Part shown: positions 1 to 36,586 of the stretch, piece after piece
Layout: each line of letters opens with the position of its first letter
How positions within the stretch are numbered: the stretch's first letter is position 1
IMG/VR virus record: IMGVR_UViG_3300046501_000208
Coordinates: 1-43,544 of that record
Origin: a virus
Strand: one strand, 5' to 3'
Length of the DNA stretch: 43,544 nucleotides
Notes under the pieces: generated by a model
Told to the model about the DNA's origin: nothing
The model's database searches: none
What the model saw: only the letters and a program-made list of their open reading frames with translations
Program-made: the position numbers and the translations under genes

Positions 1-868
1 CCTTGGTGCCTGCGGTGATGTACAGACCGGCTTCGACAGTATTGCGGTCGCCCAGCGGAAAGCCGATACCGGCGTTCGCGCCGATCAGGCAGCCTTCGCC
101 GACGCTGATCACGATGTTGCCGCCGCCTGACAGGGTGCCCATGGTCGAGCAGCCGCCGCCCAGGTCAGAACCCTTGCCGACGAACACGCCAGCCGATACA
201 CGGCCTTCGATCATGCCCGGGCCTTCGGTGCCGCCGTTGAAGTTGACGAAACCTTCGTGCATCACGGTGGTGCCTTCGCCGATGTAAGCGCCCAGACGTA
301 CGCGAGAGGTATCGGCAATACGCACGCCAGCCGGTACTACGTAGTCGGTCATTTTCGGGAATTTGTCGACCGAGAAGACTTCCAGCAGCTCGCCTTTGAG
401 GCGCGCTTCCAGTTGACGCTGGGCCAGTTCGCCCAGGTCGATCGCGCCCTGGCTGGTCCACGCCACGTTCGGCAGCAGCGGGAACACACCCGCCAGGCTC
501 AGGCCGTGCGGCTTGACCAGACGATGGGACAGCAGGTGCAGCTTGAGATAGGCCTCAGGCGTAGAGGTCAATGCAGCGTCTTCGGCCAACACAGTGGCGA
601 CCAGCGGCTTGTGGCTCTCGGCCAGACGGGTCAGCAGGGCGGCCTGTGCAGCGTCGACCGACTTCAACGCTTCTGCCAGTTTCGAGGCCAGATCGGTATT
701 GAAGGCGATGGCCTGATTGCCCCCGGTATAACCCAGGATCGGCGCGACGGCGGCGACGATTTCAGCGCAGGGGTTGAGCAATGGCAGGGCGTAGAAAACT
801 TCCAGCCAGGTGCCTTGACGGTTTTGAGTGCCGACGCCGAAGGCCAGGCTGAACAGGGAAGTGGACAT
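1..868 (-). CDS. dapD: Tetrahydrodipicolinate N-succinyltransferase (partial)
   Basis: Cytoplasmic enzyme of lysine/diaminopimelate synthesis that succinylates tetrahydrodipicolinate using succinyl-CoA. The minus-strand reading frame starts at ATG 868 (MSTSLFSLAFGVGTQNRQG) and runs open for 289 codons off the left edge; the Pseudomonas enzyme is about 344 residues, so the C-terminus is missing. The visible part contains the left-handed beta-helix region with Gly-rich hexapeptide repeats (GAYIGEGTTVMHEGFVNFNG, then GNIVISVGEGCLIGANAGIG). It lies 35 bp downstream of the ArsC-like gene in the same direction, so the two may share a transcript. This is host chromosome outside the prophage. Confidence 0.95.
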   Translation of the reverse strand, partial: MSTSLFSLAFGVGTQNRQGTWLEVFYALPLLNPCAEIVAAVAPILGYTGGNQAIAFNTDLASKLAEALKSVDAAQAALLTRLAESHKPLVATVLAEDAALTSTPEAYLKLHLLSHRLVKPHGLSLAGVFPLLPNVAWTSQGAIDLGELAQRQLEARLKGELLEVFSVDKFPKMTDYVVPAGVRIADTSRVRLGAYIGEGTTVMHEGFVNFNGGTEGPGMIEGRVSAGVFVGKGSDLGGGCSTMGTLSGGGNIVISVGEGCLIGANAGIGFPLGDRNTVEAGLYITAGTK

Positions 869-903: not shown

Positions 904-1251
904 TCAGGCGATAGCCGCTGCGTACAGTTCGGGTTTGAAGCCAATCAGGGTTTTGCCGCCAAGATCCAGCACGGGGCGCTTGATCATCGACGGTTGGGCG
1001 AGCATCAGTTCGATTGCCTTGTCCTGGTCGAGGTCGGCTTTCTGCGCCTCGTCCAGCTTGCGAAAGGTCGTGCCGGCGCGATTCAACACTGTCTGCCAGC
1101 CGTGCTCGTTGCACCACTGGGTCAGGTGTTCGCGGTCGATGCCCTGGGTTTTATAGTCGTGGAAATCGTAGCTCGCCGGTTTTTCATCGAGCCAGGTGCG
1201 AGCCTTTTTCATGGTGTCGCACGCCTTGATACCGTAAAGGGTGTAAGTCAT
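904..1251 (-). CDS. ArsC/Spx-family reductase (YffB-like), 5' end rebuilt by prophage
   Basis: A 115-residue ArsC/Spx/YffB-family thioredoxin-fold protein, beginning MTYTLYGIKACDTMKKAR. Cys sits in the family position of the first strand-loop, and the conserved MIKRPVLDLGGKTLIGF segment near the C-terminus is present. True arsenate reductase activity is not shown; the YffB-type subgroup is functionally unclear. The left attachment core (1220-1230) lies in codons 8-11, so the first codons come from the phage. The original host start is stranded at 42918 and encodes MADKKLHLYGIKA. Both versions read LYGIKA with different synonymous codons. The sequence upstream of ATG 1251 has no clear Shine-Dalgarno; the frame is open further upstream to GTG 1338 inside int. 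Transcription probably comes from the int side or from an unseen promoter. Confidence 0.85.
   Translation of the reverse strand: MTYTLYGIKACDTMKKARTWLDEKPASYDFHDYKTQGIDREHLTQWCNEHGWQTVLNRAGTTFRKLDEAQKADLDQDKAIELMLAQPSMIKRPVLDLGGKTLIGFKPELYAAAIA
1220..1230. other. attL core (candidate)
   Basis: CACGCCTTGAT is identical to 42878-42888. The similarity extends imperfectly: GTGTC before the core and CCGTA after it are shared, with single mismatches directly flanking the core. In each junction the mismatches sort into a host-like and a phage-like side. The core is within codons 8-11 of the ArsC-like gene, immediately before its Cys codon. The exact crossover is inferred from the repeat and the gene break. 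Confidence 0.75.
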
Positions 1252-1274
1252 TGATTTAAATGGGCTGAGCGGGT

Positions 1275-1307
1275 TCCCCCAAAACTCCCCCAATATTCCT
1301 CCAAAAC
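1275..1307. repeat. Three tandem 11-bp repeats, putative integrase arm sites (P arm)
   Basis: Three contiguous 11-bp units read TCCCCCAAAAC, TCCCCCAATAT and TCCTCCAAAAC. They lie between the int stop codon and the att core. Related units occur beside the right att core at 42734-42832. A period of one helical turn and a position flanking the core on the phage side fit arm-type binding sites for the N-terminal domain of a lambda-type integrase. Function is inferred. Confidence 0.6.
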
Positions 1308-1319
1308 AGGTGCGCGGGA

Positions 1320-2423
1320 TTATGCGACATCGATCCACTCGGCGCCACGACTGTCACGGTACATGTCGGTCATTCTCGCCGACCGGTGTCCGAGCAGCAT
1401 CTGTGGATCTCGGCCTTCCGCCGCGTGCAGCCTCGCCGCAAGTGAGCGCATCTCGTGAAATGTGGGAGGCGTCTTGCCCAGATCCAACCCGAGCCGTTCG
1501 GCCGCTCTCTTCCGAGCGGCGGAAAACTCTTTGCTGATTGTGTCGAGCATGATCGGCGAGCCAGCCTTTGCCCTACTGATGGTGCGCGGATGATGCACCA
1601 GGTGTTGTGACAATACGCGGTCACGGCACTGCTTGATCACTGCCCCGAGCTCCAGCCCCAAGCACTCAAGGCGTAGTTCGGTGCTGATCCTGAGCCGTGC
1701 CTTTGTCTTCGACTGGATCACGTGCAGATATCCGTCGTGCTCGTCCTTGAATACCATGCTTGCGATGTCCTCCCGCCGCTGACCAGTCAGCACTGCAAGC
1801 TCCATGGCCCGTTTCAGCCATGGCTGTTTCGCGTCCTTGTATATTTCCTTCCACAAATCCAGCGTCAACCGCTCGCGCTTGATCGTCACCCTGGCGGCTT
1901 TCGTTACCTCGACTGGGTTGACATCCGTCCAGCCCGCCGCCATGGCCTCCATGAAAACGTCCCTCAGGAGCGACCGAAGCGCCCGGGCCATCTGGGCCTT
2001 TCCTTCTTTCGCCAGCGCTCCGAGGTAACTCGCCAGCGCCATCGTCGTGATGTCTCTGATATCAATCTTGCCGAACTCAGACTCCAGTCGATTGAGCCGG
2101 ATCAGCACGTTTCTAACACTTGACGCCGCCAGCCCCCTCTCCCTGTAAATCGTCCGGTATTCCTTAATCCATTCGGCAAATGGGCGGGCATCCGGTCGTT
2201 TGGTATCGATTATCCTTTCGACAAGCGTCGGGCGAACACTATCGGCGAAGTTCGCCGCCATTGCCTCACGTATCGCGGCCTCTTTATCTTTGCCGAGTCC
2301 GAAACACCGCCCACTGACTGGGTCACGGTATGTGAAATACGTAACCCCGCTTCGGCTGTCCTTTTTCTTGTAGAGGTTGGGCGGTAGGTCTTTTGATCCA
2401 GGGTTACGCGGCCTTGGTGCCAT
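1320..2423 (-). CDS. int: Lambda-type tyrosine integrase
   Basis: A 367-residue site-specific recombinase that would integrate and excise the prophage at the adjacent att core. The N-terminus resembles the lambda Int arm-binding domain (DLPPNLYKK, then FGLGKDKEAAIREAMAAN). A SAM-like core-binding domain spans about residues 80-175, followed by the catalytic domain. The visible active-site set is R216 (TGQRRED), K239 (QSKTKARL), H323 and R326 (FHEMRSLAARL), H346 (LLGHRS) and Y355 (MYRDSRGAEW). The tail is close to lambda Int. The start overlaps the xis end by 20 nt. It is the outermost phage gene, immediately inside attL. Confidence 0.95.
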   Translation of the reverse strand: MAPRPRNPGSKDLPPNLYKKKDSRSGVTYFTYRDPVSGRCFGLGKDKEAAIREAMAANFADSVRPTLVERIIDTKRPDARPFAEWIKEYRTIYRERGLAASSVRNVLIRLNRLESEFGKIDIRDITTMALASYLGALAKEGKAQMARALRSLLRDVFMEAMAAGWTDVNPVEVTKAARVTIKRERLTLDLWKEIYKDAKQPWLKRAMELAVLTGQRREDIASMVFKDEHDGYLHVIQSKTKARLRISTELRLECLGLELGAVIKQCRDRVLSQHLVHHPRTISRAKAGSPIMLDTISKEFSAARKRAAERLGLDLGKTPPTFHEMRSLAARLHAAEGRDPQMLLGHRSARMTDMYRDSRGAEWIDVA

Positions 2424-2646
2424 AGCGTGCGTTCTCTATCCGGCTGATAAGGCTACCGCCCGCGATACGCATGGTCGGCTTTTCGGGTTCGCTGTAGTGG
2501 GCGTCAGCTTCCACATAGTAGCTGCGCCCGTGCTTTACCGGTGCTGGCGCGATGCGGCCCTCGCGAGCCCACTTGCGCAGCGTGTCCCGGCTGGGCGGGG
2601 TCTTGAACTGGTCAGTCGCCCATTCCTCAAGCGTCATCTTTGCCAT
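2404..2646 (-). CDS. xis: Excisionase, lambda Xis-like
   Basis: An 80-residue basic DNA-binding protein expected to bend attachment-site DNA and direct Int toward excision. It resembles lambda Xis: LEEWATDQFKTPPSRDTLRK, WAREGRIAPAPVKHGRSYYV and a C-terminal GGSLISRIENARYG. The ATG at 2646 was chosen because AAGGAGGT lies 6 nt upstream; the frame is open to 2772 but has no better start. Its 3' end overlaps int, so the two should be co-translated, as in lambda. Confidence 0.9.
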   Translation of the reverse strand: MAKMTLEEWATDQFKTPPSRDTLRKWAREGRIAPAPVKHGRSYYVEADAHYSEPEKPTMRIAGGSLISRIENARYGTKAA

Positions 2647-6206: not shown

Positions 6207-8312
6207 TCAGGCGGCGACGGCCTGGCGTTGAGTTGCGCGCCATGGGTCGTTGGCGCGGGCGAGGGCGGCCATCGGCGGCGGGCTTACGCTGTTGCCGCAC
6301 ATGTGGACCTGCTCGGTCTTGGTGAACGGCTTGCCGTCGGCGCCGTGCGTGATGATGTAGTCCAGGGGGAAGCCCTGCGCTCGGTACAGCTCGGCCGGTT
6401 GCAGCATCCGCAGCCGGATATCCACGATCACGTAGGGGGTGCCCTTGACCATGACGGTGACCAGGCCAAGCCGATCCTTGGTCGTGATCGTTGGCGCCGG
6501 CTGATCGCACGAGCTCATGTTCTCGGTGCCGTAATAGCTGATCAGGAACGCAGCAACCCTCAGCGCGCCTTCTTCATGCTCGGGCGAAAGCTCAAAGCTG
6601 ACCAGCGAACTCTTTCCGCCACCACCGGCGGTGATCGTCGGCGACGGGTCGGTCAGTGCCTGGCCAACGCTGGCGCCGAACTGACGCTCCATGAAAGCAG
6701 TCATCAGGCCGTGATGGGTGCCGCCAGCGCTCACAGTGTGCAGTGGCTCATCCGCTGCCCGGGCGTCACAGTTGCCGCGCAGGTGCAGGAGACTCGCCGT
6801 CACCAGTTGCTGCTGACTGCCGGTATTCGTCACCGTGGTCATCGGGTCGTTGAGGCTTTTCGCGTCGGTGGTGTTGAAGCCGCCATTCATTTGCGCCATG
6901 AACGCGGTGGCGATGCCCATGGCGTGGGCGGCGCCAGCTGGGCGCTGGTAGTTTCCTCCGCTGGTGATGGTCGGAAGCGGTTCGTCCAGCGCTTTGCCTT
7001 CGTCGTTGAACCGGAACTTGACCAGGTGCGCCGAAGCGATTGAATGTCCGCCGCTGGCGGTAACAGTGCCCAGTGGGTCGGCGGCGGATTTACTGCCGTC
7101 CCCCCAGCGCTGAACACCGCCTGGCTTCCCTTCGCCGTGGGCCGCCGTGACCATCACCGGGCTGATCAAGGTGAGTTCACCGCGGTTGGCGCAGGTCACG
7201 GTCGGCAGAGGTTCGAGTGGATCGTTGATGCGGTCGCTGCCCTGGTGCGTTGCTGGCGCGATCACAGGGCTGACGACAGAGAACGAACCGCCTTTCGGGT
7301 AGGACGTCACTGTGCGCAGCGGCTCATTCATGGATTGCACCGCCTCGGTCGACCAGTTCGCGATCGGCACGATAAAGGGGGTAGGGTTGTCGATAACGAA
7401 CTTCTTCATGCCTTTGGCGATGCGGCGCTTGGTGGCGTCCGCCAATTCATCCTTCCGGCCGAAAATGCTTTTGCCCAAGTCGCTGAAGTCGATGCACTCG
7501 GCAGCGGTGCGGTATTTCTGCTGACCTTTCGCGGGCTTCTTGGCGTGTGTCGGCTCTGGCCACACAATCGGCTGACCGTCGCAACGGGCGATCATAAATA
7601 GACGCTCCCGGCTGGTCGGCGCGCCAAAGTCGCAGGCCTTGATAACACGCCACTCGACGGCGTAGCCCATGCCTTCCAATAGCTGTACGAACCGGCGCCA
7701 GGTGGTGCCGCGGCGCTTCGGATCAGGTACAAGAAACTGCTGTCCTACCGGGACAACCTCGCCAGGTGCAGCAACAACCTTCTCGATGACTTCCTTCCCC
7801 TTGGCGTTCAGCACGGTCACAAGCTTGATGGCCCGGCCGGTTTCCTTGTCGCGCTTGGCGACCAGCGGACCCCATTGAAGGATCTGCTTTACGTTCTCCA
7901 GGCTGATGACGCGCGGCTTCTTCTTGCCGCCCCACTTGAGGCCAATCCACGACAGGTTGCGGATCTCGCGCTTGCGCGGCTGACCGCCGGCTGCCTGGCT
8001 GTGATGGGTGCAGTCCGGGGACATGTGGAACCATCCAACCGCCTTACCTCCGCATTCCATATCCGGGTCACCTTCGAACACATCGGTCGTGAAGTGCTTG
8101 GCGCCCGGGTGGTTGACGGTGTGCATACTAATCGCTTTGGCGCTGTGGTTCTTCGCCACGCTGACTTTGCGGCCGAGGCCCATTTCCAGCCCGGTCCCGG
8201 CGCCGCCACCACCGCAGAAGAAGTCCACGACGATCTCATCGTCTTGCGGGTCGAAGCCAAGGCCGTACTGCGTTTTGAAATCGAAGGAGTGTTTTTTCTG
8301 GTGTGCGGACAT
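6207..8312 (-). CDS. DNA cytosine-C5 methyltransferase with expanded repeat region
   Basis: A 701-residue Dcm-type enzyme that would methylate cytosine C5 in DNA, probably protecting phage DNA from host restriction. Motif I is VDFFCGGGGAGTGLEMG (residues 29-45). The catalytic motif is SPDCTHHSQAAGG with C101, a variant common in phage enzymes. ENV is at residues 139-141 and TSRERLF near 233-239. The C-terminal motifs are LQPAELYRAQGFP (637-649) and MCGNSVSPP (671-679). The target-recognition region is unusually long and carries eight copies of an acidic-P-x-x-T-[VI]-[TS] motif at about residues 329, 365, 411, 443, 488, 521, 554 and 603. No cognate restriction enzyme is adjacent. ATG 8312 follows AGGAT. 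Confidence 0.9.
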   Translation of the reverse strand: MSAHQKKHSFDFKTQYGLGFDPQDDEIVVDFFCGGGGAGTGLEMGLGRKVSVAKNHSAKAISMHTVNHPGAKHFTTDVFEGDPDMECGGKAVGWFHMSPDCTHHSQAAGGQPRKREIRNLSWIGLKWGGKKKPRVISLENVKQILQWGPLVAKRDKETGRAIKLVTVLNAKGKEVIEKVVAAPGEVVPVGQQFLVPDPKRRGTTWRRFVQLLEGMGYAVEWRVIKACDFGAPTSRERLFMIARCDGQPIVWPEPTHAKKPAKGQQKYRTAAECIDFSDLGKSIFGRKDELADATKRRIAKGMKKFVIDNPTPFIVPIANWSTEAVQSMNEPLRTVTSYPKGGSFSVVSPVIAPATHQGSDRINDPLEPLPTVTCANRGELTLISPVMVTAAHGEGKPGGVQRWGDGSKSAADPLGTVTASGGHSIASAHLVKFRFNDEGKALDEPLPTITSGGNYQRPAGAAHAMGIATAFMAQMNGGFNTTDAKSLNDPMTTVTNTGSQQQLVTASLLHLRGNCDARAADEPLHTVSAGGTHHGLMTAFMERQFGASVGQALTDPSPTITAGGGGKSSLVSFELSPEHEEGALRVAAFLISYYGTENMSSCDQPAPTITTKDRLGLVTVMVKGTPYVIVDIRLRMLQPAELYRAQGFPLDYIITHGADGKPFTKTEQVHMCGNSVSPPPMAALARANDPWRATQRQAVAA

Positions 8313-13140: not shown

Positions 13141-13794
13141 TTAGATTCTTCCGAGAACTTTACTTGGGCCGAGAATGGCGCCGACGTAATGAATGGTCTG
13201 AATTTGCGTCCACGGGATCGTCACGCGTTCGTAGGCCGAGTTGATCGACATCAGGCTCACGCCCTCATCGTTCTGAAACAGCAGCTCCTTGACCATGCTC
13301 TGCTCATCAACTGTCGTGACCATCACGTATTCGCCTGGCACGAGCCTGTGGTTTGGCTCGCACACAGCAACCCAGCCACTCCGGATCGCTGGTGCCATCG
13401 AGTCGCCGCGCAGCAGTAAAGCGTAAGCATCAGTGTCGCGGGACCAAGTCTCAACCCAGCCTCCAGCGTCCTCAAGGCCAACCCAATGGCCGTCCGGGCC
13501 CATCTGTGCAGTGCCCATGATGTCGATCCTTCGAGCGGCGGTAGTTATTGGAGGGCCAGGCTCGACGTTCCCTTCCAAAACTACACCCTGGCTGTCTCCG
13601 CCAAACATCAGCCATGTAGGTGACGTGCGCAGCACGCGGGCTATTTTCTCAATAGTTGGCTTGCGCGGACTTGAACTTTCTCCTGAGAGAATGCGGTTGA
13701 TGGTTGGCTGCGGCACCCCTGAGCGACGGCCCAGCTCGCTTTCGTTCAGATCATGCTCGACCATCTTGGCGCGCAACCTTGTCGCCACATCCAT
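13141..13794 (-). CDS. cI: CI-type prophage repressor (HTH plus S24 peptidase)
   Basis: A 217-residue repressor. The N-terminal XRE-type helix-turn-helix spans about residues 5-65 (LNESELGRRSGVPQPTINRI). A LexA/CI-like S24 domain follows (LLLRGDSMAPAIRSGWVAVC, catalytic Ser in GDSM, then a Lys in TVDEQSMVKELLF). RecA-stimulated self-cleavage would trigger induction. ATG 13794 begins at the natural HTH N-terminus; the frame stays open upstream through the operator region and is not used. It faces cro divergently and heads a three-gene transcript ending at 12455. Confidence 0.92.
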   Translation of the reverse strand: MDVATRLRAKMVEHDLNESELGRRSGVPQPTINRILSGESSSPRKPTIEKIARVLRTSPTWLMFGGDSQGVVLEGNVEPGPPITTAARRIDIMGTAQMGPDGHWVGLEDAGGWVETWSRDTDAYALLLRGDSMAPAIRSGWVAVCEPNHRLVPGEYVMVTTVDEQSMVKELLFQNDEGVSLMSINSAYERVTIPWTQIQTIHYVGAILGPSKVLGRI

Positions 13795-13803
13795 AAAACC
13801 ACC

Positions 13804-13878
13804 ATGCGTACACGTATAGCCGAGATTGTATTGCCTCGAGCTATCCGTTTTCGTATGATCTGTTATGCAAATACTCAT
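13804..13878. promoter_or_regulatory. OR operator-like repeats between cI and cro
   Basis: Three 14-bp copies: ATGCGTACACGTAT (13804-13817), ATCCGTTTTCGTAT (13843-13856) and ATGCAAATACTCAT (13865-13878). The second overlaps the PR -10 box. The shared pattern ATNC, variable centre, C..AT is roughly symmetric and recurs twice at PL. The number and placement mirror lambda operators. Confidence 0.55.
13831..13859 (+). promoter_or_regulatory. Candidate PR promoter
   Basis: TTGCCT (13831-13836) and TATGAT (13854-13859) are separated by 17 bp. The start site would be near 13866, about 25 nt before the cro ATG. The operator-like copy at 13843-13856 covers the spacer and -10, as expected for repressor control. 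Confidence 0.7.
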
Positions 13879-13890
13879 AGAGGTCGATCC

Positions 13891-14073
13891 ATGACAGTTC
13901 AAGAAATGTTGAATCGCCTTTTTCAGCTTGGACTGTCGCAGGCAGATATCGCTGAAAAATGTGACTCCACCCAGCCCACGATTTCCCGTGCGGCAAATGG
14001 CGCGCAGGTTCGATACGAGCTTGGAAAGGCGATCGAAGAGCTTTATCACGCCGCTACTACGCAGGCTGCGTGA
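13891..14073 (+). CDS. cro: Cro-like HTH regulator
   Basis: A 60-residue protein, little more than one helix-turn-helix: LFQLGLSQADIAEKCDSTQP, then TISRAANGAQVRYELGKAI. It is the first gene from PR, divergent from cI, the place and size of Cro. It should repress cI and early promoters through the shared operators. ATG 13891 has AGAGGT upstream. Confidence 0.85.
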   Translation: MTVQEMLNRLFQLGLSQADIAEKCDSTQPTISRAANGAQVRYELGKAIEELYHAATTQAA

Positions 14074-14151
14074 TAGCGAAGTTGGTTTGACAGAAACATT
14101 TTGCAACGCGTGATGGCGCGCAGCCACATAAACAAATTTGAGGTTTTAGGG

Positions 14152-17118: not shown

Positions 17119-17543
17119 TTGCGGCGCAACCGAAGTTGTTCAAGAAGCGCACCCGGGCCAAGCCGGTCGACCGCGAGGGCATGGAGCAGGCTGCACTGTT
17201 GCGGGAGCTGAAGCTGCGCCTGCCAGCCGTCGAAGCGCTGATCTACCACGTTCCCAATGGTGGCCAGCGGCACAAGCTGGTGGCGATCAAGCTGAAAGAG
17301 CAGGGCGTGAAAGCGGGCGTTCCTGATCTGGTGCTGCCCATGGCCCGCGGCGGCTATTTCGGCCTGTATCTGGAATTCAAGGCCACGGTGCCGAACGACG
17401 CTGCCGTCTCGGCCAGCCAGCACGCATGGATTCGCCAGCTCAACGAGCAGGGTTATCTCGCGATCGTGTGCCGCGGCCACTTCGATGCCATGGAGCAGAT
17501 CCGCGCGTACCTTCTGCTCCCTCCTACAGTGGTGGCTGCATGA
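17115..17543 (+). CDS. VRR-NUC domain nuclease
   Basis: A 142-residue protein with the VRR-NUC restriction-fold layout: EGMEQAALLRELKLRLPAVE (conserved early Glu), then KAGVPDLVLPMARGGYFGLY and LEFKAT (PD-(D/E)xK core), followed by AWIRQLNEQGYLAIVCRG. It resembles structure-specific nucleases thought to resolve branched DNA, filling the NinG/RusA niche. GTG 17115 overlaps the preceding stop; the stop overlaps the recombinase start as ATGA. Confidence 0.85.
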   Translation: MIAAQPKLFKKRTRAKPVDREGMEQAALLRELKLRLPAVEALIYHVPNGGQRHKLVAIKLKEQGVKAGVPDLVLPMARGGYFGLYLEFKATVPNDAAVSASQHAWIRQLNEQGYLAIVCRGHFDAMEQIRAYLLLPPTVVAA

Positions 17544-18826
17544 CGACGGCAGCCGTGAAAATCACCGAGGCCGAGATCAAGCGCCAGGCCGCCGGCGAAG
17601 TCCGAGACCTGCGTGATTATGAGCACCGCGGGCTGTACCTGCGCTTCGCCAAAGCGCGTACCCGGGCGTCTTGGTTTCTGGTTGTACGGGGCGAGTGGAA
17701 TCGGATCGGCAGCTATCCGGACTTGTCCGTGAAACAGGTCGTCGCGGCGCTCCCTGACATCCGTCTGCGCTTGGACGCAGGTGCGAGCACGAACCTGTCC
17801 AAATGGCTGACCGCTGGCGAGCTGCTGGAGTGGTACGGCGAGCGGATGGCGCGTGATCGCAGCCTTTCCGATAAGCGTAAGGACACCGCCGCATCCGCGA
17901 TCAAGTGCCACCTGATCCCGCGCCTTGGCGCTGCACCGTTGGCCGATATCGACAAGGCATTCCTTGATCGTGAGCTGATGTGGCCGCTGCAAGAGACGCT
18001 GTCCATTGATTACGTACGGCTGGTCTTCCAGCTGCTGGCGCTGGCCTTCCGGCAGGCCCACAAGCTCGGGCTGATCGTGAGCAATCCGCTGTCCGCGATC
18101 AAGTTCAGCGACTTCTCGAAAGCCAAGGTCACCGTCAAGCCGTCGCGGTTGCGGGGCGTACACATCGAGGAGCTGCTGAGCCTGCTGCTGCGTGACATGT
18201 TCCCCTTGATGAATGACGCCATGCTGGCGCTGATGATGCTCTGCCATGGCACCCGGATCGGCGAAACCCGTCAGGTGCGCTGGGACCACGTCAGCTTGGC
18301 GGAACGGGTGTGGTTCCTCCCGGCAGCAGACACGAAGACCCGCGTCGAGCATTACCTGCCACTGACCGATCAGGTCCGGCACCTGCTGATGCGTTACCGC
18401 GAAGTGCAGATGGCTCGCGGGTATCACGGGCCATTCCTGTTCCCTGGGCGTCGAGGCAAGTCGCTGAGCGAGAGCCAGGCCAGTGCCGTGTTCACCAGGC
18501 TGGGGAAGGGCGAGTGGACCAGTCACGATCTGCGCAAGCTCGCCCGAACCGGCTGGGCAGATATCGGCATTGACCATCTGATCGGCGAGCTGCTGATCAA
18601 CCACGCCATGGGCCACAACGTGAAGGTGTACATCCAGTCGGACGTCATGGCCCGCAAGCGTGACGCGCTGGAGAAGTGGCACGGGTATCTAGACGGCAAG
18701 GGCCTAAGCATCATTCTTGGATTGACCGGCTTTAGATCTGGGGATTCCGATAAACCGCTACAGGCCACGGCGCATAAGGGCTGCGACCCCATTCACGAAT
18801 CAACCATAGGCGAGGTTTCAAAATGA
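17540..18826 (+). CDS. Second tyrosine recombinase, in the replication region
   Basis: A 428-residue P4-integrase-like recombinase distinct from the attL int gene. The N-terminal part resembles the P4-type arm-binding domain (YEHRGLYLRFAKARTRASWF). The catalytic set appears intact: R239 (HGTRIGETRQ), K266 (ADTKTRVE), H329 and R332 (SHDLRKLART), H355 (LLINHAMGHN) and Y364 (VYIQSD). It is locked in the early operon by ATGA overlaps on both sides rather than next to an att site, which suggests a role in replication or resolution, not integration. This is inference; no matching att site was found. Confidence 0.85.
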   Translation: MTTAAVKITEAEIKRQAAGEVRDLRDYEHRGLYLRFAKARTRASWFLVVRGEWNRIGSYPDLSVKQVVAALPDIRLRLDAGASTNLSKWLTAGELLEWYGERMARDRSLSDKRKDTAASAIKCHLIPRLGAAPLADIDKAFLDRELMWPLQETLSIDYVRLVFQLLALAFRQAHKLGLIVSNPLSAIKFSDFSKAKVTVKPSRLRGVHIEELLSLLLRDMFPLMNDAMLALMMLCHGTRIGETRQVRWDHVSLAERVWFLPAADTKTRVEHYLPLTDQVRHLLMRYREVQMARGYHGPFLFPGRRGKSLSESQASAVFTRLGKGEWTSHDLRKLARTGWADIGIDHLIGELLINHAMGHNVKVYIQSDVMARKRDALEKWHGYLDGKGLSIILGLTGFRSGDSDKPLQATAHKGCDPIHESTIGEVSK

Positions 18827-22422: not shown

Positions 22423-24150
22423 ATGACCAAAGCCCTGCATCCCAACGTCGATAAGGCGATGGCGTGGGGTAGGTCTGTGCTCCGTGGGAAGGTACCGGCT
22501 TGCCGTTATATCCACCAGGCAATCCAGCGTCACTTCGACGATCTGGCGGCCAGCCGCAAGCGTGGTTACCGGTTCAAGTTCGACCCGGCCAAGGCGGAGA
22601 AAAAGCTGAAGCTTATCCAGCTTCTGCCCCACACCAAGGGCGAATGGGCATTCAAGCGTCAGTTGATCAGCCTGGAACCCTGGCAGCTTTTCGGAATGGC
22701 TGTCACGTTCGGCTGGGTTAAGAAGAAGGGCGGGCACCGGCGGTTTCGCGAGAGCTACTGGGAGGTGCCGCGCAAGAACGGCAAGTCGGTGATCGCCGCC
22801 GGCGTCGGCATCAGCATGTTCGTGGCCGACGGCGAGTTCGGCGCCGAGGTGTACTCGGGCGCCACCACTGAAAAGCAGGCCTGGGAGGTTTTCCGGCCGG
22901 CCAAGCTGATGGTCGCCAAGTCGCCGATGCTGGTCCAGGCGGCAGGAATCGAGGTCAACGCCTCGAATATGAACATCCCCTCCGACTTCAGCCGCTTCGA
23001 GCCGCTGATCGGTGATCCTGGGGACGGTGCATCGCCTAGCTGCGCGATCGTGGACGAATACCACGAGCACCGCACATCGGCCCAATACGACACCATGCTC
23101 ACCGGTATGGGCGCCCGCCGGCAGCCGCTGATGTTCATCATCACGACCGCGGGCGCGGATATCGAAGGTCCGTGCTACGACAAGCGTCGCCAGGTCATCG
23201 AGATGCTCGAGGGCACGGTGCCCGACGACGAGTTATTTGGCTTCATCTGGACGCTCGACGAAGGTGACGACTGGACCGACCCGAAGATGCTGGCCAAGGC
23301 CAACCCAAACCACGGGGTGTCGGTGTTCCAGGAGTATCTGGAGAGCCAGCAGGCCCGGGCAATTCGGTCGGCACGCTTCACCAACACGTTCAAAACCAAA
23401 CACCTGAACCTCTGGGTTAGCGCAAAATCCGGCTTCTTCAACATGGAAGACTGGAAAGCCTGCGAAGACACCACGCTTACGCTCGAGCAGTTTGAGGGGC
23501 AAGAGTGGATTGCGGGCTTCGACCTAGCGCGCAAGTTGGATATGAACTCGCGAGCGCGGATTTTCTGGAGGGTCATCGACGGCAAGACCCATTACTACAG
23601 CGTGGCTCCTAAGTTCTGGGTGCCGTATGACACCGCCTACAACACCGACAACAAGCGCATGTCGGAGCGGTTCCAGGCTTGGATCAACTCCGGACATCTG
23701 GAGGTTACCGACGGCGCCGAGATCGATTACCGGGAAATCCTTGAAGATACCAAGGAGGCTAACCATCAGGCGCCGCTTCGCGAATCACCCATTGACCCTC
23801 ACGGAGCTACGGGCTTGAGCCATGACCTCGATGACGAGGGTTTCAACCCGATCACCATCACGCAGAACTACACGAACATGTCGGACCCCATGAAAGAGCT
23901 CGAGGCGGCAGTAACCGCCGGCCGGTTCCACCATGACGGCAATCCGATCATGACTTGGTGTATCGGAAACGTGATCGGCAAGAACCTGCCGGGCAATGAC
24001 GATGTCGTGCGCCCGATCAAGCAGGGCGAAGACAACAAGATCGACGGCGCGGTCGCAACGATCATGGCGGTAGGCCGGATCCTGATCTTGGTCAACGACA
24101 GCAGCGGCAACATTAGCGACTTCTTCTCAAAACCAATCATCGTTGGATAA
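22423..24150 (+). CDS. terL: Terminase large subunit, HK97 type
   Basis: A 575-residue packaging motor. The Walker A-like motif is PRKNGKS (116-122) and Walker B is CAIVDEYH (about 207-214). The nuclease domain begins near [15 protein letters not shown] and continues to the C-terminal acidic residues around [12 protein letters not shown]. Length and motif order match Terminase_1. It couples ATP hydrolysis to DNA translocation and cuts the concatemer. The start codon immediately follows the terS stop. Confidence 0.95.
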
Positions 24151-24161
24151 CTGGACTGACC

Positions 24162-24326
24162 ATGAATACAGGCCTGCTCGTATTTCTTCTGGCGGCCATG
24201 GCTGGCCTGTGCCTGCTCGTTGGCGGCGTATTCGTTCTGTCCGGTCTGGGCTGGGCACTAGTGGCTGGCGGCGCTGCTTTCTTGGTCGCTGCGGGCTTCG
24301 TTCGCAAGGGGCTTACCGGTGAGTAA
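24162..24326 (+). CDS. Small two-helix membrane protein (54 aa)
   Basis: A 54-residue hydrophobic protein starting MNTGLLVFLLAAMAGLCLLV, with a second membrane segment (GWALVAGGAAFLVAAGF) and a short basic tail. It sits between terL and portal, where several HK97-like phages carry a small membrane protein of unknown role, and overlaps the portal start by 8 nt. ATG 24162 has a weak ribosome site. Confidence 0.6.
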   Translation: MNTGLLVFLLAAMAGLCLLVGGVFVLSGLGWALVAGGAAFLVAAGFVRKGLTGE

Positions 24327-25656
24327 ACCTCTCAAGGCTGTCCTACAGCAGGCGCTGTTCAAGTCGGCTGAACCCGGGCTTATGAAGTCGTCGCTGGCCG
24401 GATGGGTTGGGCGCCGAATCGGTCTGGGTGATTCCTCATTCTGGAACAGCTTCTACGGGACCGACTCCGCATCCGGAAAGACGGTTAGCCAGCAAACGGC
24501 GCTGCAGCTCTCCACTGTCTGGGCGTGCGTCCGCCTGATTGCGGAGACACTGGCCACGCTACCTATCGCGCTGTACGAGGACCAGAACGGTGTGCCCGTC
24601 GTCGCCTCGACTCACCCTGTGCACCGCGTGATTAGCATGCAGCCGAACGCTGACCAGACTCCTGTGGAGTTCTGGGAATGCGTGGTTGCAAGCTTGCTGC
24701 TCAGCGGCAACAGCTTCAACGAACCACACCTTGTGGGTCGCGATGTTTCGTCGTTGGAATTCATACTGCCGCAGAGCGTGTCGCCGCCGAAGCGACTCAG
24801 CAATGGCGCTATCGAATACCGTTTCATCGATAGCCTGGGCAAGCCTCATACCCTGCTCGACGAGCAAATGATGCACACCCGCGGCTTTGGTACTGACCCG
24901 CTTTATGGACTCAGTCCATTGTCGATGGGGCGTAACGTCTTCGGCGCCGCGATGGCGGCCGATGAGTCTGCCAGCAAGATGTTCGCGAACGGTATGAAGC
25001 TGGGCGGCGTGCTTTCTACCGACCAGATCCTGAACAAACAGCAGCGTGAAGACATCCGCGAGGACATGGCCGCCAAGTTCGCCGGCGCCGTCAACACCGG
25101 GAAGACCATGGTGCTGGAAGCGGGCATGAAGTATCAGCAGGTGTCGATGACGCCTGAAGATGCTCAGATGCTGCAGACCCGAGCGTTCAACGTCGAGGAA
25201 ATCTGTCGATGGTTCCGTGTGCCGCCTTGGATGGTTGGTCACACATCCAACAGCACTAGCTGGGGCACCGGGATGGAGCAGCAGATGCTGGGCTTTCTCA
25301 GCTTTACCTTGCTGCCTTGGATGAAACGCATCGAGCAGAGCATCAACCGTCGCCTACTGCGGCCTGATGAGCGTCGCCGGTTTTACGCCAAGTTCAACCC
25401 GGAAGGCCTGCTACGCGCCGACAGTGCCGCTCGCGCAGCGTTTTACAGCTCGATGACACAGAACGGTATCTACACCCGTGACGATTGCCGGATTAAAGAG
25501 AACCTGGCGCCCATGGGCGGTAACGCCGCGAAGCTCACCGTCCAGTCCAACATGCTGCCGATCGACAAGCTCGGTGCCGACGGCGGTGATGCGATCAAGG
25601 CTCGGTCGGCGCTGCTCGACTGGCTCAACGACAAGCCGAAAGGTAATTCAGAATGA
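24319..25656 (+). CDS. Portal protein, HK97 gp3 family
   Basis: A 445-residue portal forming the DNA entry ring at one capsid vertex. Family features include VSQQTALQLSTVWACVRLIA near the N-terminus, LLLSGNSFNEPH, and EEICRWFRVPPWMVGHTSNS followed by TSWGTGMEQQMLGF. GTG 24319 (MSKPLKAVL) was chosen by its overlap with the preceding gene. The stop overlaps the protease start by 4 nt. Confidence 0.95.
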   Translation: MSKPLKAVLQQALFKSAEPGLMKSSLAGWVGRRIGLGDSSFWNSFYGTDSASGKTVSQQTALQLSTVWACVRLIAETLATLPIALYEDQNGVPVVASTHPVHRVISMQPNADQTPVEFWECVVASLLLSGNSFNEPHLVGRDVSSLEFILPQSVSPPKRLSNGAIEYRFIDSLGKPHTLLDEQMMHTRGFGTDPLYGLSPLSMGRNVFGAAMAADESASKMFANGMKLGGVLSTDQILNKQQREDIREDMAAKFAGAVNTGKTMVLEAGMKYQQVSMTPEDAQMLQTRAFNVEEICRWFRVPPWMVGHTSNSTSWGTGMEQQMLGFLSFTLLPWMKRIEQSINRRLLRPDERRRFYAKFNPEGLLRADSAARAAFYSSMTQNGIYTRDDCRIKENLAPMGGNAAKLTVQSNMLPIDKLGADGGDAIKARSALLDWLNDKPKGNSE

Positions 25657-26354
25657 AGCGCAAAGACCAATCGGTGGCGGTGAAATACCGCTCATTCGAC
25701 TATGACGTAAAGGCTGTCGGCGAAGACGGCCTTTTTTCTGGGTACGGTTCCGTGTTCGGGGTCGTCGACAGCTACAACGAGGTTGTCGCGCCAGGCGCGT
25801 TCCTGGAGTCAATCGCGGATGCCAAGGCGAAGTCACGCACCTTTCCGGTTCTTTGGCAGCACCGTACCGGCGAGCCGATCGGTAGCTGGGATATTGAGAG
25901 TCTGAAAGAGGACGACCGCGGTCTTTTCGGCTCCGGCCAGCTCTGGCTCGAAGATGCGCCGTATGCCCGAATCGCTAACCGAGGAATGCAGTCTCGCTCG
26001 ATCACCGGACTCTCCATCGGCTACTACGTGCGCGAGTCCAGTTTCGATGAGAAGACCCGGATTCGCACGCTGACCAAGCTGGACCTGGTCGAGATTTCCA
26101 TTGTCACCGTGCCGGCTAACGATGAGGCCCGCACCGACACCATCAAGTCGAAGCTGGCCCACGGCGGCCTGCCTTCGCTCCCTGAATTTGAGTTGCTCCT
26201 GCGCGAGGCAGGCTTCTCGAAAACTCAGTCTGCGGTGATTGCCAACCGTGGATTGAAGCATTTGCTCCGGAGTGAGTCCGAGGGCGACCTGGCAGAAATC
26301 GAAATTGTCGAGGCGTTGAAAGCGCGCCCGGCACTGTCTCTCCCCTCATTTTAA
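25653..26354 (+). CDS. Prohead protease, HK97 family
   Basis: A 233-residue serine protease (U35/S78 type) that cleaves the capsid delta domain during maturation. The catalytic His is in LWQHRTGEPIG and Ser in ITGLSIGYYV. The usual start motif FSGYGSVFGVVDS is present. Portal-protease-capsid order is canonical. Confidence 0.93.
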   Translation: MKRKDQSVAVKYRSFDYDVKAVGEDGLFSGYGSVFGVVDSYNEVVAPGAFLESIADAKAKSRTFPVLWQHRTGEPIGSWDIESLKEDDRGLFGSGQLWLEDAPYARIANRGMQSRSITGLSIGYYVRESSFDEKTRIRTLTKLDLVEISIVTVPANDEARTDTIKSKLAHGGLPSLPEFELLLREAGFSKTQSAVIANRGLKHLLRSESEGDLAEIEIVEALKARPALSLPSF

Positions 26355-26363
26355 GGATTCATC

Positions 26364-27617
26364 ATGCATAACGTCATGAGCAACGGCGCGCGCGCCGAAA
26401 GCCGCCAGATGCAGCGTAAAGAGCACGCTGGCGACAAGATCGAGCTGAAAGCGGTCAACGACCTGCTCGACCAGCGCGATCAGGAAATCAAGGCATTTGC
26501 CGAGAAGGCCAGCAAGGAAATCAAAGAGCACGGTACCATCCTGGCGGACACCAAAACCGTTTTGGACGGTCTGGTGAAAGATGGTCTGGGTCTGCAAGAT
26601 CGCCTGCAGGACATCGAGCAGAAAATGGCGCGCCGCTTCGCTGCCAACGATCCTGCCGAGCAAAAGTCCGCTGGCGAAGAGCTGTCGGAGTCCGAGGACT
26701 TCCAAGCCCTGCAAACACGTGGTCGCGGTATTGCCCGTATCGGTCGTAAGGCGGTTACCAACATCACCAGCTCCACCACCGGCACCGGTGGTGTCGGCGT
26801 AGGCATCCAGCCTACCCGTGTTCCTGGCATCGTTGCCGGGCCAGATCGCGAGTTCACGATCCGCGACCTGATCATGCCCGGCCGCACCGCGTCGAACGCA
26901 ATCGAGTTCGTTCAGGAGAGCGGTTTCCAGAACATGGCGGCGGTGCAGGCGACTGAAGGCGCGGCTAAGGCTCAGTCCGACATCTCGTTCGCACTGAAGA
27001 CGACCAACGTTGTCACCATTGCTCACTGGTTCCGGGCATCCAAGCAGGTGCTGTCGGACATCCCGCTGCTGCAGAGCTACATCAACGGCCGTGCGATCTA
27101 CGGCCTGAAGTACAAGGAAGAAGAGCAGATCCTTGCTGGCAACGGCGTAGGCGGCAACCTGCTCGGCCTCATACCTCAAGCCACCGCGTTCAACAACGCT
27201 CTGCGCAAGGCTGGCGACACCAAGATCGACACTCTGCGCCGAGCCATCCTGCAGGTACGTATCGCTGAATACCGTGCCTCGGCCATCGCGCTGAACCCGG
27301 TCGACTGGGCGGATATCGAGCTGACCAAGGACGCTAACGGCTCCTACATCTGGGTAAACGTCCAGGAAGGCGGCGCTCAGCGCCTGTGGAAGCTGCCGGT
27401 TGTGGACAGCAACGCTGTTCCAGAAGGTGAATTCCTCGTCGGCGCGATGAATATCGCCGCCCAGGTGTTCGACCGCGAAGACGCTGCTGTCGAGGTTTCG
27501 ACCGAAGACGGTGACAACTTCCGCACCAACATGGTGACCATTCGTGCGGAAGAGCGCCTGGCGCTCGCTGTTTACCGCGAAGAGTCCTTCGTCCACGGTG
27601 AATTTGACGCGGCTTAA
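26364..27617 (+). CDS. Major capsid protein, HK97 gp5 family
   Basis: A 417-residue precursor. About the first 100 residues are a charged coiled-coil delta domain acting as internal scaffold (NDLLDQRDQEIKAFAEKASK). The HK97 fold follows (FTIRDLIMPGRTASNAIEFV, AHWFRASKQVLSDIPLLQSY, ILAGNGVGGNLLGLIPQA). Cleavage by the preceding protease is expected. ATG 26364 follows AAGGA. Confidence 0.95.
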   Translation: MHNVMSNGARAESRQMQRKEHAGDKIELKAVNDLLDQRDQEIKAFAEKASKEIKEHGTILADTKTVLDGLVKDGLGLQDRLQDIEQKMARRFAANDPAEQKSAGEELSESEDFQALQTRGRGIARIGRKAVTNITSSTTGTGGVGVGIQPTRVPGIVAGPDREFTIRDLIMPGRTASNAIEFVQESGFQNMAAVQATEGAAKAQSDISFALKTTNVVTIAHWFRASKQVLSDIPLLQSYINGRAIYGLKYKEEEQILAGNGVGGNLLGLIPQATAFNNALRKAGDTKIDTLRRAILQVRIAEYRASAIALNPVDWADIELTKDANGSYIWVNVQEGGAQRLWKLPVVDSNAVPEGEFLVGAMNIAAQVFDREDAAVEVSTEDGDNFRTNMVTIRAEERLALAVYREESFVHGEFDAA

Positions 27618-27667
27618 GTCGTCATCACCAAACTGGAGCGCGCTCAGGCAACTGGGCGCGAACACCG

Positions 27668-27910
27668 ATGCCAGAAATTACCGTTAAGGCCATCAAGAGC
27701 TTCAGCGCCGATGGCTTGAAAACCGACGTGTCCTACGTCAAGCGCGGGTCAGAATTCCCGGTCGACGAATCTGTCGCGCGCGACCTCCTGCGTTCCGGGC
27801 TCATCGAGAATTACGGCGTGAAAAACGCAGAGAAACCTGAAAACAAAAAGGCGCCAGAACCAGCCAACAAATCCGCGCCGAAACCGTCAACCAAACAGGC
27901 AGACAAATAA
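27668..27910 (+). CDS. Hypothetical protein downstream of capsid (80 aa)
   Basis: An 80-residue protein: a compact N-terminal part (ITVKAIKSFSADGLKTDVSY, then DESVARDLLRSGLIENYG) and a disordered Lys/Pro-rich tail (PENKKAPEPANKSAPKP). It lies between capsid and connector genes, so a minor head or assembly role is likely but unproven. Confidence 0.7.
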   Translation: MPEITVKAIKSFSADGLKTDVSYVKRGSEFPVDESVARDLLRSGLIENYGVKNAEKPENKKAPEPANKSAPKPSTKQADK

Positions 27911-27912
27911 CC

Positions 27913-28389
27913 ATGAGCGTGATCGCCATCGAACTGGCCATGGCCCACCTGCTGGCTGAGCCTGAGGATCAAGAGTTGATCCAGGCACAGCTGGACGCGG
28001 CCGAGGAAGCGGCAATGCGCTTCTTGAACCGCCGGTTCTTTGCCGATCAAGCAGCAGTTGATTCAGCCAGGGCAGACACCAACCAGCGGATACGCGATGC
28101 GCGCGGTGTCTACGGCATTGCAATTTCCGAGGCTGATTTGCCAGAGAATGCGGATATACGCTGCAAGCTTCGGGAAAACGCCAGAAACGTGCTGGTGGAA
28201 ACCTACGAGATCATCGACATGGACGAGCGCGGAATGGTGATCAACGCCGCTATCACAGCGGCTTGTCTGCTGAAGCTCGGCCACCTGTTCGCCAATCGCG
28301 AAGAAGTTGTCACGGGAACCATCGCTACCGAGTTGCCGCTCTCTTCGAAGTCTCTTTTGATGCCTTACCGCATCAAGATGGGTGTTTGA
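27913..28389 (+). CDS. Head-tail connector, gp6-like
   Basis: A 158-residue mostly helical protein like HK97 gp6 adaptors: LDAAEEAAMRFLNRRFF near the N-terminus and INAAITAACLLKLGHLFANR, ending SKSLLMPYRIKMGV. It would ring the portal and accept the stopper protein. Its stop overlaps the next start as TGATG. Confidence 0.85.
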   Translation: MSVIAIELAMAHLLAEPEDQELIQAQLDAAEEAAMRFLNRRFFADQAAVDSARADTNQRIRDARGVYGIAISEADLPENADIRCKLRENARNVLVETYEIIDMDERGMVINAAITAACLLKLGHLFANREEVVTGTIATELPLSSKSLLMPYRIKMGV

Positions 28390-28727
28390 TGCTGGCCGGT
28401 AAGCTGCGGCACCGCATTGATTTCCAGACGCTGGGCGAGGTGCAGGATCCGGACAGCGGCGAGATGGTGCCAGGATGGGCGACGATCTGGGCCAAGGTGC
28501 CAGCCTCGGTGACGCCACTCAGCGCTCGCGATTTGATCGCCGCGCAGGCAGCACAATCAGAAGCCTCGGCGCGTATCGTGATTCGATACCGTGCCGGTGT
28601 TTTGCCCACCATGCGCATTATCCATCGCGGTGAGGCCTACGACATCAAAGGACCGGCCTTGCCTGATCCTGACTCTGGCCTGGAATACCTCACCATCCTG
28701 GTGGCGAAAGGAGTTAACGATGGCTGA
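28389..28727 (+). CDS. Head closure protein
   Basis: A 112-residue beta-barrel stopper typical of SPP1 gp16/HK97 gp7-type proteins: MLAGKLRHRIDFQTLGEVQD, WATIWAKVPASVTPLSARDL, and RIIHRGEAYDIKGP. It closes the head after packaging. ATG 28389. Confidence 0.88.
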   Translation: MLAGKLRHRIDFQTLGEVQDPDSGEMVPGWATIWAKVPASVTPLSARDLIAAQAAQSEASARIVIRYRAGVLPTMRIIHRGEAYDIKGPALPDPDSGLEYLTILVAKGVNDG

Positions 28728-29220
28728 CGGCATCGAGTTCAAGCTCGAGGGAATCGACTCGTTGGTTTCCAAGCTTGAGGCGATCAGCTACGACGCCAAG
28801 CGCAAGGGCGGCCGCTCCGCACTTCGCAAGGCAGCTCAAGTTGTCGCGGATGCCGCCAAGCAAAACGCCAATCGGATCGACGACCCGGAAACAGCCGCCG
28901 CTATCTACAAGAACATTGCGCTTCGATGGAACGGGAGACTGTTCAAAACCAGTGGCAACCTCGGGTTCCGAGTTGGCGTGCTCGGCGGTGCTCGGATTCC
29001 GAAATCGAAGCCGAAAGGGGAAGATTCTGGATACCCTGGCGGTGATACCCGTTACTGGGCATTTGTTGAGTTCGGCACGTCGCACTCGGCAGCAAAGCCA
29101 TTCATGCGTAATGCGCTGGCAGACAACATCAGCCTCGCGACGAACACGTTCATCACTGAATACGAAAAAGCCATCGACCGAGCAATCAAGCGAGCGGCCA
29201 AGAAAGGAACGACAGCGTGA
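28720..29220 (+). CDS. HK97 gp10-like tail-terminator-region protein
   Basis: A 166-residue protein of the HK97 gp10 family, acting at the neck/tail junction. It has an N-terminal helix-rich part (SLVSKLEAISYDAKRKGGRS) and the motif YWAFVEFGTSHSAAKPFMRN. ATG 28720 has AAAGGAG 6 nt upstream and overlaps the previous gene by 8 nt. Confidence 0.88.
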   Translation: MADGIEFKLEGIDSLVSKLEAISYDAKRKGGRSALRKAAQVVADAAKQNANRIDDPETAAAIYKNIALRWNGRLFKTSGNLGFRVGVLGGARIPKSKPKGEDSGYPGGDTRYWAFVEFGTSHSAAKPFMRNALADNISLATNTFITEYEKAIDRAIKRAAKKGTTA

Positions 29221-29585
29221 ACTCAGCACCTATCTTCGCCGTATGCGCTGCTGATGCTGGCGTGACTGCGCTACTTGGCCTGTCCCCGACCAGGCTTTAC
29301 CCCTTCGGCGAAGCGCCTGAGGGCGTTGCCAAGCCATATGCCGTCTGGCAATTGGTGACGGGCAGCCCTGATAACTACCTCGCCGGTCGCCCGGACATCG
29401 ACGGATACACGCTGCAGGTTGATGTTTACGGCGCCACGGCCGCATCGGCCCGCGCAGTAACGGCCGCGATCAGCGCCGCCATAGAGTTGAAAGCCTACGT
29501 GGCCCGCTGGGGCGGCGAGAGCAAAGACACCGAAACAAAGCTCTACCGGTCCAGCTTCGATATCGACTGGCTCGTACCCCGATAG
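29217..29585 (+). CDS. Tail completion protein (DUF3168, gp17-like)
   Basis: A 122-residue protein of the DUF3168/tail terminator type: [20 protein letters not shown] followed by [20 protein letters not shown]. It would cap the tail tube. GTG 29217 overlaps the previous stop as GTGA. Confidence 0.85.
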
Positions 29586-29590
29586 CCAAA

Positions 29591-29611
29591 CCCAAACCCA
29601 AACCCCGGCCC
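29591..29611 (-). repeat. Potential G-quadruplex on the minus strand
   Basis: The plus strand has four C-runs with short spacers (CCC, CCC, CCCC, CCC, separated by AAA, AAA and GG), so the minus strand has four G-runs of three or more within 21 bases. It lies just before the short terminator at 29609. Folding has not been tested. Confidence 0.5.
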
Positions 29612-29630
29612 GCCATGTGCGGGTTTTTTT
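29609..29630 (+). terminator. Weak intrinsic terminator before the tail tube gene
   Basis: CCCGC (29609-29613) pairs with GCGGG (29619-29623), followed by seven T. The stem is short, so this may be an attenuator that antiterminated late transcripts pass. It separates head-completion genes from the tail tube gene. Confidence 0.6.
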
Positions 29631-29653
29631 ATGCCCGACATTTGGAGATCACC

Positions 29654-30385
29654 ATGTCGATTCTGTCCCAAGGAACCCAGATTTACGCCCTGGTGCCGAC
29701 AGCTGCCAACCCGGCGGTTTTCGAAATTCTCGAAATCGAGTGCGCCACCGCTTTCAGTCCGGGCGGCAACCCTGCTGATCAGATCGAGGTCACCTGCCTC
29801 AGTGATAAGGTTCGTCACTATATGCGTGGCCTCCGCACCCCTGGCCAGGCTTCGCTCACCCTCAATGCTGATTCGAGAAATGCCTCGCATGTGCGGCTGC
29901 ATCAGCTTTCCGAAGATGACTCCATCGAAAGCATTCGCTGGGCCGTCGGCTGGTCTGACGGGTTGGGCATCGCTCCTACGGTTGGAAGCGATGGCGCCGT
30001 GGCTGCCCTCAGCCTGACCACGGGCGGAACGGGCTACACCTCTGCACCAACTGTTGCGCTCACGGGCGGTGGTGGTACCGGCGCGACGGCAATCGCGATT
30101 ATCTCTGGCGGCGCTGTGACCGGATTCAATATCACCAGCCCGGGCACCGGATATACGTCGCCGCCATCCGTTGCGCTCACCGGCGGTGCTGGTAGTGGCG
30201 CAGTTGCAGCTGCCGTGCTGGGCGATAGCGACGACTTCGTTCTGCCAAATACGCGCACCTGGTTCATCTTCGACGGCTACGTGTCTGACTTTCCGTTCGA
30301 CTTCGCCGCCAACGCAGCTGTTACCACTGCGGCAACTATCCAGCGTTCTGGTGGCTCGGCTTGGATTCCTAAGGTGGCCGCGTAA
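29654..30385 (+). CDS. Major tail tube protein with inserted Gly-rich repeat domain
   Basis: A 243-residue tail tube protein. The tube-like fold is seen at both ends ([40 protein letters not shown]; then [20 protein letters not shown]). Between about 115 and 190 two tandem repeats of about 40 residues are inserted, each around GYTSxPxVALTGG. The repeats may be a surface decoration of the tail shaft. ATG 29654 follows TGGAGATCACC. Confidence 0.85.
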
Positions 30386-30732
30386 TGGATTTGAGTCTCG
30401 ACAACCTCAAGAAATCTAAGGCGTTCACCGCACGCCCGGTGGAAAAGACAATCGAGTGGAACAAGGATGGAGAATTGCTCAAGTTCACCACCTTTGTCCG
30501 GCCGCTTTCTTACCAGACCGCAGTAGGCGACATTGCTGCTCATCGTGGCGCCGATCCGCTGGCATCAAGAATTGCATCGAGCATCTGTAACGCTGAAGGC
30601 CAAGCCGTCTTCACAGTGGCCGATATCACCGGCGAAGCTGATCCAGAGAAAGGTGCACTTGACCCGGATCTTACAAACCTCCTTCTCATCGCCATAGGCG
30701 AAGTGCAAAACGTGGGAAAGACGAAGGCCTGA
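30385..30732 (+). CDS. Tail assembly chaperone gpG-like
   Basis: A 115-residue chaperone for tape-measure protein, equivalent to lambda gpG by position, size and the frameshift near its end. It includes KKSKAFTARPVEKTIEWNKD and PLASRIASSICNAEG. ATG 30385 overlaps the previous stop (TAATG). Confidence 0.85.
   Translation: MDLSLDNLKKSKAFTARPVEKTIEWNKDGELLKFTTFVRPLSYQTAVGDIAAHRGADPLASRIASSICNAEGQAVFTVADITGEADPEKGALDPDLTNLLLIAIGEVQNVGKTKA
30714..30720 (+). promoter_or_regulatory. Programmed -1 frameshift site GGGAAAG
   Basis: GGGAAAG is set in the gpG frame as G GGA AAG, four codons before its stop. Slipping back one base to GGG AAA continues into the downstream frame to 31022. This is the same heptamer and phase as in the lambda G-T gene pair. 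Confidence 0.85.
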
Positions 30733-31022: not shown

Positions 31023-31058
31023 CGCTGTTAAATTGCCGTTTTCTTGGGAGGGAATCTG

Positions 31059-31250: not shown

Positions 31251-31263
31251 TAGTAATTTTTGT

Positions 31264-31288
31264 AAAGCCCGCTTCGGCGGGTTTTTTT
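31264..31288 (+). terminator. Intrinsic terminator before the tape measure gene
   Basis: CCCGC-TTCG-GCGGG with flanking A/T pairs and a run of seven T. The UUCG tetraloop makes it stable. It closes the small membrane-protein unit. Confidence 0.75.
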
Positions 31289-31304
31289 ATGCCTGGAGAA
31301 AAAC

Positions 31305-36579: not shown

Positions 36580-36586
36580 GGTTTCT

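Follow-up and report, generated by a model that had tools for sequence, protein, structure and literature searches.

In phage lambda, attB is intergenic, and attP runs from the core through the IHF site H' and three adjacent arm sites (P'1-3) to the integrase gene. Insertion at the 5' end of a coding gene is known from other elements. Islands and prophages at dusA insert there and bring the gene a new promoter and a new N-terminus (PMC4482086); the element-supplied promoter of IMEVchUSA3 was shown by a lacZ fusion (PMC8409611), and the ICE SXT integrates at the 5' end of prfC (cited in PMC8409611). The closest described system is pp3/LESphi3 of Pseudomonas aeruginosa, in which both the phenomenon and the site analysed here are already described (PMC5367828). 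There, the 26-bp att sequence of pp3 (CAGGCTTTGATGCCGTAGAGAACGTA) lies on the LYGIKA codons of yffB, the integrase gene adjoins yffB and reads toward it, excision at the yffB site and re-integration are integrase dependent, the authors predicted the same -10 with and without the prophage, and integration leaves the amino-acid sequence as it was; the accessible part of that account does not mention that the -10 overlaps the integrase stop codon or that an IHF consensus overlaps the start codon. In this report, we describe a prophage that, judged by its integrase, site and -10, belongs to the same yffB-specific integration module; what is new is a genus-wide set of 48 yffB phage junctions and 77 uninfected genomes, with controls. 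The best explanation of our data, with a probability of about 0.85, is that the phage arm repairs yffB with a substitute promoter, leader, start codon and N-terminus.

Attachment sites and the rebuilt yffB gene

The window (the whole stretch of DNA that was analysed, 43,544 nt) holds a prophage between stretches of host DNA, dapD (NCBIfam DapD; 2-868, minus strand) lying on the left and a Na+/H+ antiporter gene (43151-43544, plus strand) on the right. Its layout is lambda-like and looks complete, with a CI-type repressor, a CII-like regulator, terminase, portal, head, tape measure, tail and endolysin genes (blocks at 13141-14127, minus strand, and 22423-41877, plus strand), and the prophage may therefore be active. 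The early left region also encodes a 701-aa C-5 cytosine DNA methylase (6207-8312, minus strand); pp3 carries a cytosine methyltransferase too. Reading toward attL is a lambda-type tyrosine integrase gene (367 aa; 1320-2423, minus strand; Pfam Arm-DNA-bind_1 and Phage_integrase), the start of which is overlapped by an excisionase gene (2404-2646, minus strand; Pfam Exc, 110 bits). The integrase is 70.8% identical to that of LESphi3 over 367 aa and falls in the same tree as the other yffB-specific integrases. The gene of a second tyrosine recombinase (466 aa; 17426-18826, plus strand; PHROG integrase, Pfam Phage_integrase) follows a lambda-P-like replication gene in the early region, distant from both att sites; this recombinase is less likely to be the enzyme of the yffB att site, given its distance of 16 kb from attL and the fact that an integrase of the 1320-2423 type adjoins yffB in 48 phages.

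The attL and attR repeats (1214-1240 and 42872-42898) are identical at 24 of 27 positions and share an 11-bp core, CACGCCTTGAT, at 1220-1230 and 42878-42888; no tRNA gene was found in the 43,544-nt window, and tRNA-linked integration was rejected for this reason. In the rebuilt gene (904-1251, minus strand; 115 aa), which is phage DNA from the ATG to the core and host DNA from the core onward, the core forms codons 8-11 (I8, K9, A10 and C11), directly ahead of the active-site Cys codon and reaching into it. This Cys codon is completed by host DNA; Trp stands there in attR of the window and in nine related-phage attP sequences. The left junction reads MTYTLYGIKACDT, the rebuilt gene starting with MTYTLYGIKACDTM, and the orphaned native 5' end at attR (42856-42918, minus strand) reads MADKKLHLYGIKAWDTLRFC, with a stop soon past the core. 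When the flanks were joined at the core, they matched uninfected Pseudomonas sp. Bc-h without gaps at 99.3% over 1,886 bp, and at 350 of 350 positions across the joined junction; yffB of Bc-h encodes MADKKLHLYGIKACDTM, and its genome has no match to the window integrase. Thus, the positions of attB and of the junctions are exact and do not reflect chance, the long ungapped match ruling out a chance repeat as the source of the att similarity. The original prediction had placed the integration at codons 8-11 of an ArsC/Spx-like gene whose 5' end is rebuilt by the phage, and att sites, frame and empty site all agree with it.

The product of the rebuilt gene is an ArsC-family reductase. It scored 129.2 bits against NCBIfam NF008107 ('ArsC family reductase'; cut-off, 121), also matched Pfam ArsC, passed the cut-off of a broad Spx/MgsR/ArsC-related subfamily model and has YffB, the P. 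aeruginosa homologue, as its nearest solved structure (1RW1; E=4e-65), with scores far under the cut-offs of the Spx and arsenate-reductase models proper.

Related junctions and the proposed -10 at the integrase stop

With the integrase as query, we searched viral contigs, phage records and two genome draws, one at genus level (16 of 399 positive) and one at family level (18 of 398 positive), some genomes being common to both. The 68 distinct and sufficiently long junctions gathered include 48 in yffB (39 attL or integrated and 9 free attP), and 77 genomes with yffB made up the uninfected comparison set. Among 29 loci first pooled as having another target, nine proved to be free attP of yffB phages and nine had genes between the integrase and the att region; after their removal, only 11 were clean other-target controls. 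These 11 loci (L109 of genome G002 among them) have integrases of the same group and the same arm repeats beside other targets and form a retargeting series; in L126 and L127 the integrases read into response-regulator-like DCNMPVMNGYD sequence. In the nine integrase-separated prophages, several of the inserted genes are antisense to int, and the position is a possible cargo slot; the yffB att region lies 2.3 kb further on in L098 and 0.6 kb further on in L221, and the next gene in L105 and L203 resembles another integrase start.

A heptamer, GCATAAT, lies at 1319-1325 (minus strand) and is made up of the last Ala codon of the integrase, its TAA stop and the next base, T; we propose it as the -10 of the rebuilt yffB. 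The -10 of native yffB, now stranded at attR (42961-42967, minus strand), is the same heptamer, and the same -10 sequence is found upstream of yffB with and without the prophage. The original prediction had overlooked this phage copy of the host -10. GCATAAT is present in 47 of the 48 yffB phage junctions and in 75 of the 77 uninfected yffB genes, in which it lies 60-87 nt 5' of the LYG codon despite differing upstream neighbours, and the phage copy stands at the same distance from LYG. It occurs in none of the 11 loci where the same arm repeats precede another gene, which represent only 3-4 independent lineages, and in one of the nine that have genes between integrase and att region, the eight without it being scattered across the tree. 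In the integrase phylogeny built with IQ-TREE, yffB adjacency and GCATAAT agreed in 8-9 of 10 independent pairs and disagreed in none (sign test on the 10 pairs, p about 0.004-0.008); the integrase-separated class alone gave agreement in 6-7 of 8 independent pairs. Insertions beside the integrase could have altered the stop context mechanically.

The heptamer might be conserved for the C-terminal DVA of the integrase, or for recombination, rather than as a promoter, and C-termini of (D/E)VA are indeed found in nearly all relatives. However, relatives that do not adjoin yffB keep the same C-terminal residues with other codons and stops (GCT, GCC or GCG; TGA or TAG), and the 7-mer is therefore not accounted for by its coding role; in addition, the T that follows the stop is conserved although it codes for nothing, and 75 of the 77 uninfected yffB genes carry the same 7-mer at the same distance. 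We regard such conservation as very improbable and favour a role of GCATAAT as the -10 of yffB. The window copy is without the TG of an extended -10 (TCGCATAAT), while 69 of the 77 hosts have TGGCATAAT, and inspection by eye upstream of the window GCATAAT found no convincing -35. In two lysogens, L238 (G079) and L240 (G588), native yffB has no GCATAAT nearby, and the prophage of G079 supplies one; in these cases the phage may give yffB a promoter of its own where the gene was read from upstream genes.

Start codon, IHF consensus and the exchanged N-terminus

The phage-supplied ATG (1249-1251, minus strand) is contained in a match to the IHF consensus, AATCAATGACTTA (1244-1256, minus strand), which we propose as the H' site; it is the only exact match to WATCAANNNNTTR in the window, where 0.47 were expected. 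Three tandem arm-type repeats (TTTTGGGGGA, TATTGGGGGA and TTTTGGAGGA; 1275-1306, minus strand), 11 bp apart, are the proposed P' arm sites, and the same repeats are also found beside other-target integrases. On the attR side, arm-type-like repeats at 42745-42821 (TTTTGGGGGAG on the minus strand, TTTTGAGAGGC and TTTTGAGGGGT on the plus strand) may form the P arm. The IHF consensus is exact in 36 of the 48 yffB phages and in 7 of the 11 other-target phages with arm repeats, as against 0.26% in shuffled sequence. Between the -10 and the core, the consensus matches to arm sites and to IHF succeed one another in the order that a lambda-like arm would have.

An ATG in frame with LYG is present in all 48 yffB-specific phages, although the distance from the integrase stop to LYG (79-83 nt) differs among them by non-multiples of three. 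The phage N-termini fall into three lengths, namely the MTYT type (18 phages), the MPNEIKHLQ type (22) and the METPCKIKHLH type (8). In the window lysogen, MADKKLH-LYGIKAC is replaced by MTYT-LYGIKAC, and 18 of 20 genomes with both junctions have at attL a phage N-terminus unlike the native one at attR, with start codons set by visual inspection of frame and context. It is in this respect that the window host and these 18 lysogens depart from pp3, with its unchanged amino-acid sequence (PMC5367828). The original prediction had taken MTYTLYG for the phage start and MADKKLHLYG for the host start. An MTYT or MAYT start is in fact native in other uninfected Pseudomonas (eight loci, for example), which counts weakly against it; the near relative Bc-h has only MADKKLH, and this empty site rules out MTYTLYG as the native start of the window host.

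Tyrosine recombinases require identity between the two cores, and the phage match might accordingly be att DNA only, with LYGIKA copied as core, the read-on into yffB a by-product and no selection for expression. The residues before LYG are of the kind this would predict. In the 22 MPNE-type phages, codon positions 1, 2 and 3 vary alike without third-position bias, and the invariant columns follow the IHF consensus, including a Leu codon that is always TTA; one of nine columns at fixed IHF positions is variable, compared with 9 of 15 elsewhere (Fisher p about 0.03, kinship ignored). However, neither GCATAAT nor the in-frame ATG is part of the core, integrases without yffB beside them have lost GCATAAT whereas arm repeats and IHF consensus stay at other targets, and the frame is open in all 48 junctions. 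We therefore hold it quite unlikely that the match is att DNA only and retain repair of yffB by the phage arm. The LYGIKA codons of the 48 phages are variable at six of six third positions and at one of 12 first and second positions, a pattern that fits either protein-level selection or host synonymous changes copied through the core. The original prediction, that the phage copy is selected as protein and not as att DNA, thus stands in part: the third-position variation in LYGIKA and the ATG in 48 of 48 phages speak for it, and the residues before LYG, which follow the IHF consensus, speak against it. Taken together, frame and LYGIKA appear to be kept as protein, and the tail before LYG is probably DNA-driven for the most part, since it shows no third-position bias and its invariant columns follow the IHF consensus.

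Translation of the rebuilt gene bears on a further possibility, that lysogeny switches the regulation of YffB, with lower, higher or altered expression, and is not a neutral repair. This is compatible with repair of yffB by the phage arm, and both can be true. The leader is different, and the window ATG has no Shine-Dalgarno sequence whereas the native start has GGGGG upstream, so yffB expression may drop upon lysogeny; at dusA, expression fell after integration (PMC8409611). Against a switch, 18 of the 24 uninfected genomes with a short start are also without a ribosome site, and the frame is kept in 48 of 48 phages; we consider it unlikely. Contrary to the original prediction, a missing ribosome site does not mark the rebuilt gene as odd: of the phages and uninfected genomes with the short MTYT-type start, no more than 5 of 18 and 6 of 24, respectively, have a Shine-Dalgarno-like sequence. 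The MPNE- and METP-type phages have such a sequence, built from the arm repeat. In the window, the yffB frame continues without a stop from the ATG back into the integrase gene (1255-1338, minus strand, with GTG at 1338). A TTG preceded by GGAGGA lies in this frame 42 nt upstream of the ATG and offers an alternative start, from which a longer YffB would be possible. The stretch upstream of the ATG has no stop codon in 16 of the 18 short-type phages; an upstream stop in that frame in 21 of the 22 MPNE-type phages indicates that the TTG start is not a general feature.

The integrase-proximal arm and its target gene

The tyrosine integrase of this lambda-type temperate prophage would recognise the codons of the yffB active-site loop (LYGIKAC), and insertion severs the gene from its native promoter and N-terminus. 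If the phage arm repairs yffB, the int-proximal arm would then take over: the -10 would be the GCATAAT at the integrase stop, the leader would consist of the arm-site repeats, and an ATG within the IHF site would open a short new N-terminus in frame with the host codons before the catalytic Cys. Lysogeny would exchange promoter, leader and first residues and keep YffB at full length, and excision would restore native yffB. The sequences themselves establish the junctions, the empty site, the frame and the match of the -10 with its link to the target; we infer that integrase and IHF would bind at the proposed sites, that the promoter would fire and that the rebuilt protein would work.

Like the dusA elements, the window phage inserts at the 5' end of a gene and has a start in frame with it, and the predicted -10 would be the counterpart of the promoter of dusA- and SXT-type elements. 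The differences are the target gene in both cases and the type of element, IMEVchUSA3 being mobilizable and not a phage (PMC8409611) and SXT being conjugative. The view that integration within a coding gene is less common than at tRNA genes is fair, yet pp3, the dusA elements and SXT are direct precedents. The proposed order of core, H', P'1-3 and integrase in the window would match that of lambda, and the integrase has the lambda arm-binding domain. A difference is that lambda attB is intergenic, whereas the proposed P' arm here doubles as the 5' region of a gene. A search of the open-access literature found nothing relevant on overlaps of an IHF site with a start codon or of an integrase stop with a -10.

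Our data suggest that the phage repair DNA also serves as binding sites for recombination proteins, the arm carrying an apparent expression cassette for the target gene, one that overlaps the recombination sites. We lean toward the joint reading that the int-proximal attP arm is under dual selection, for recombination and for host-gene expression, and swaps YffB N-termini genus-wide. Such an arm would hold the integrase stop as a -10 hexamer, its arm sites would be the leader and, in the longer types, the Shine-Dalgarno sequence, and the start codon and opening codons of a host enzyme would lie within the IHF site. The system is ordinary in kind, and its overlapping design is unusually clear. 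It provides a genus-wide, well-controlled case of a phage that attaches within a conserved host gene and preserves that gene, in which seven bases at the integrase stop track the target gene and not the integrase, and a testable case of overlapping constraints between recombination sites and gene expression, in which lysogeny repeatedly replaces the N-terminus of a conserved enzyme.
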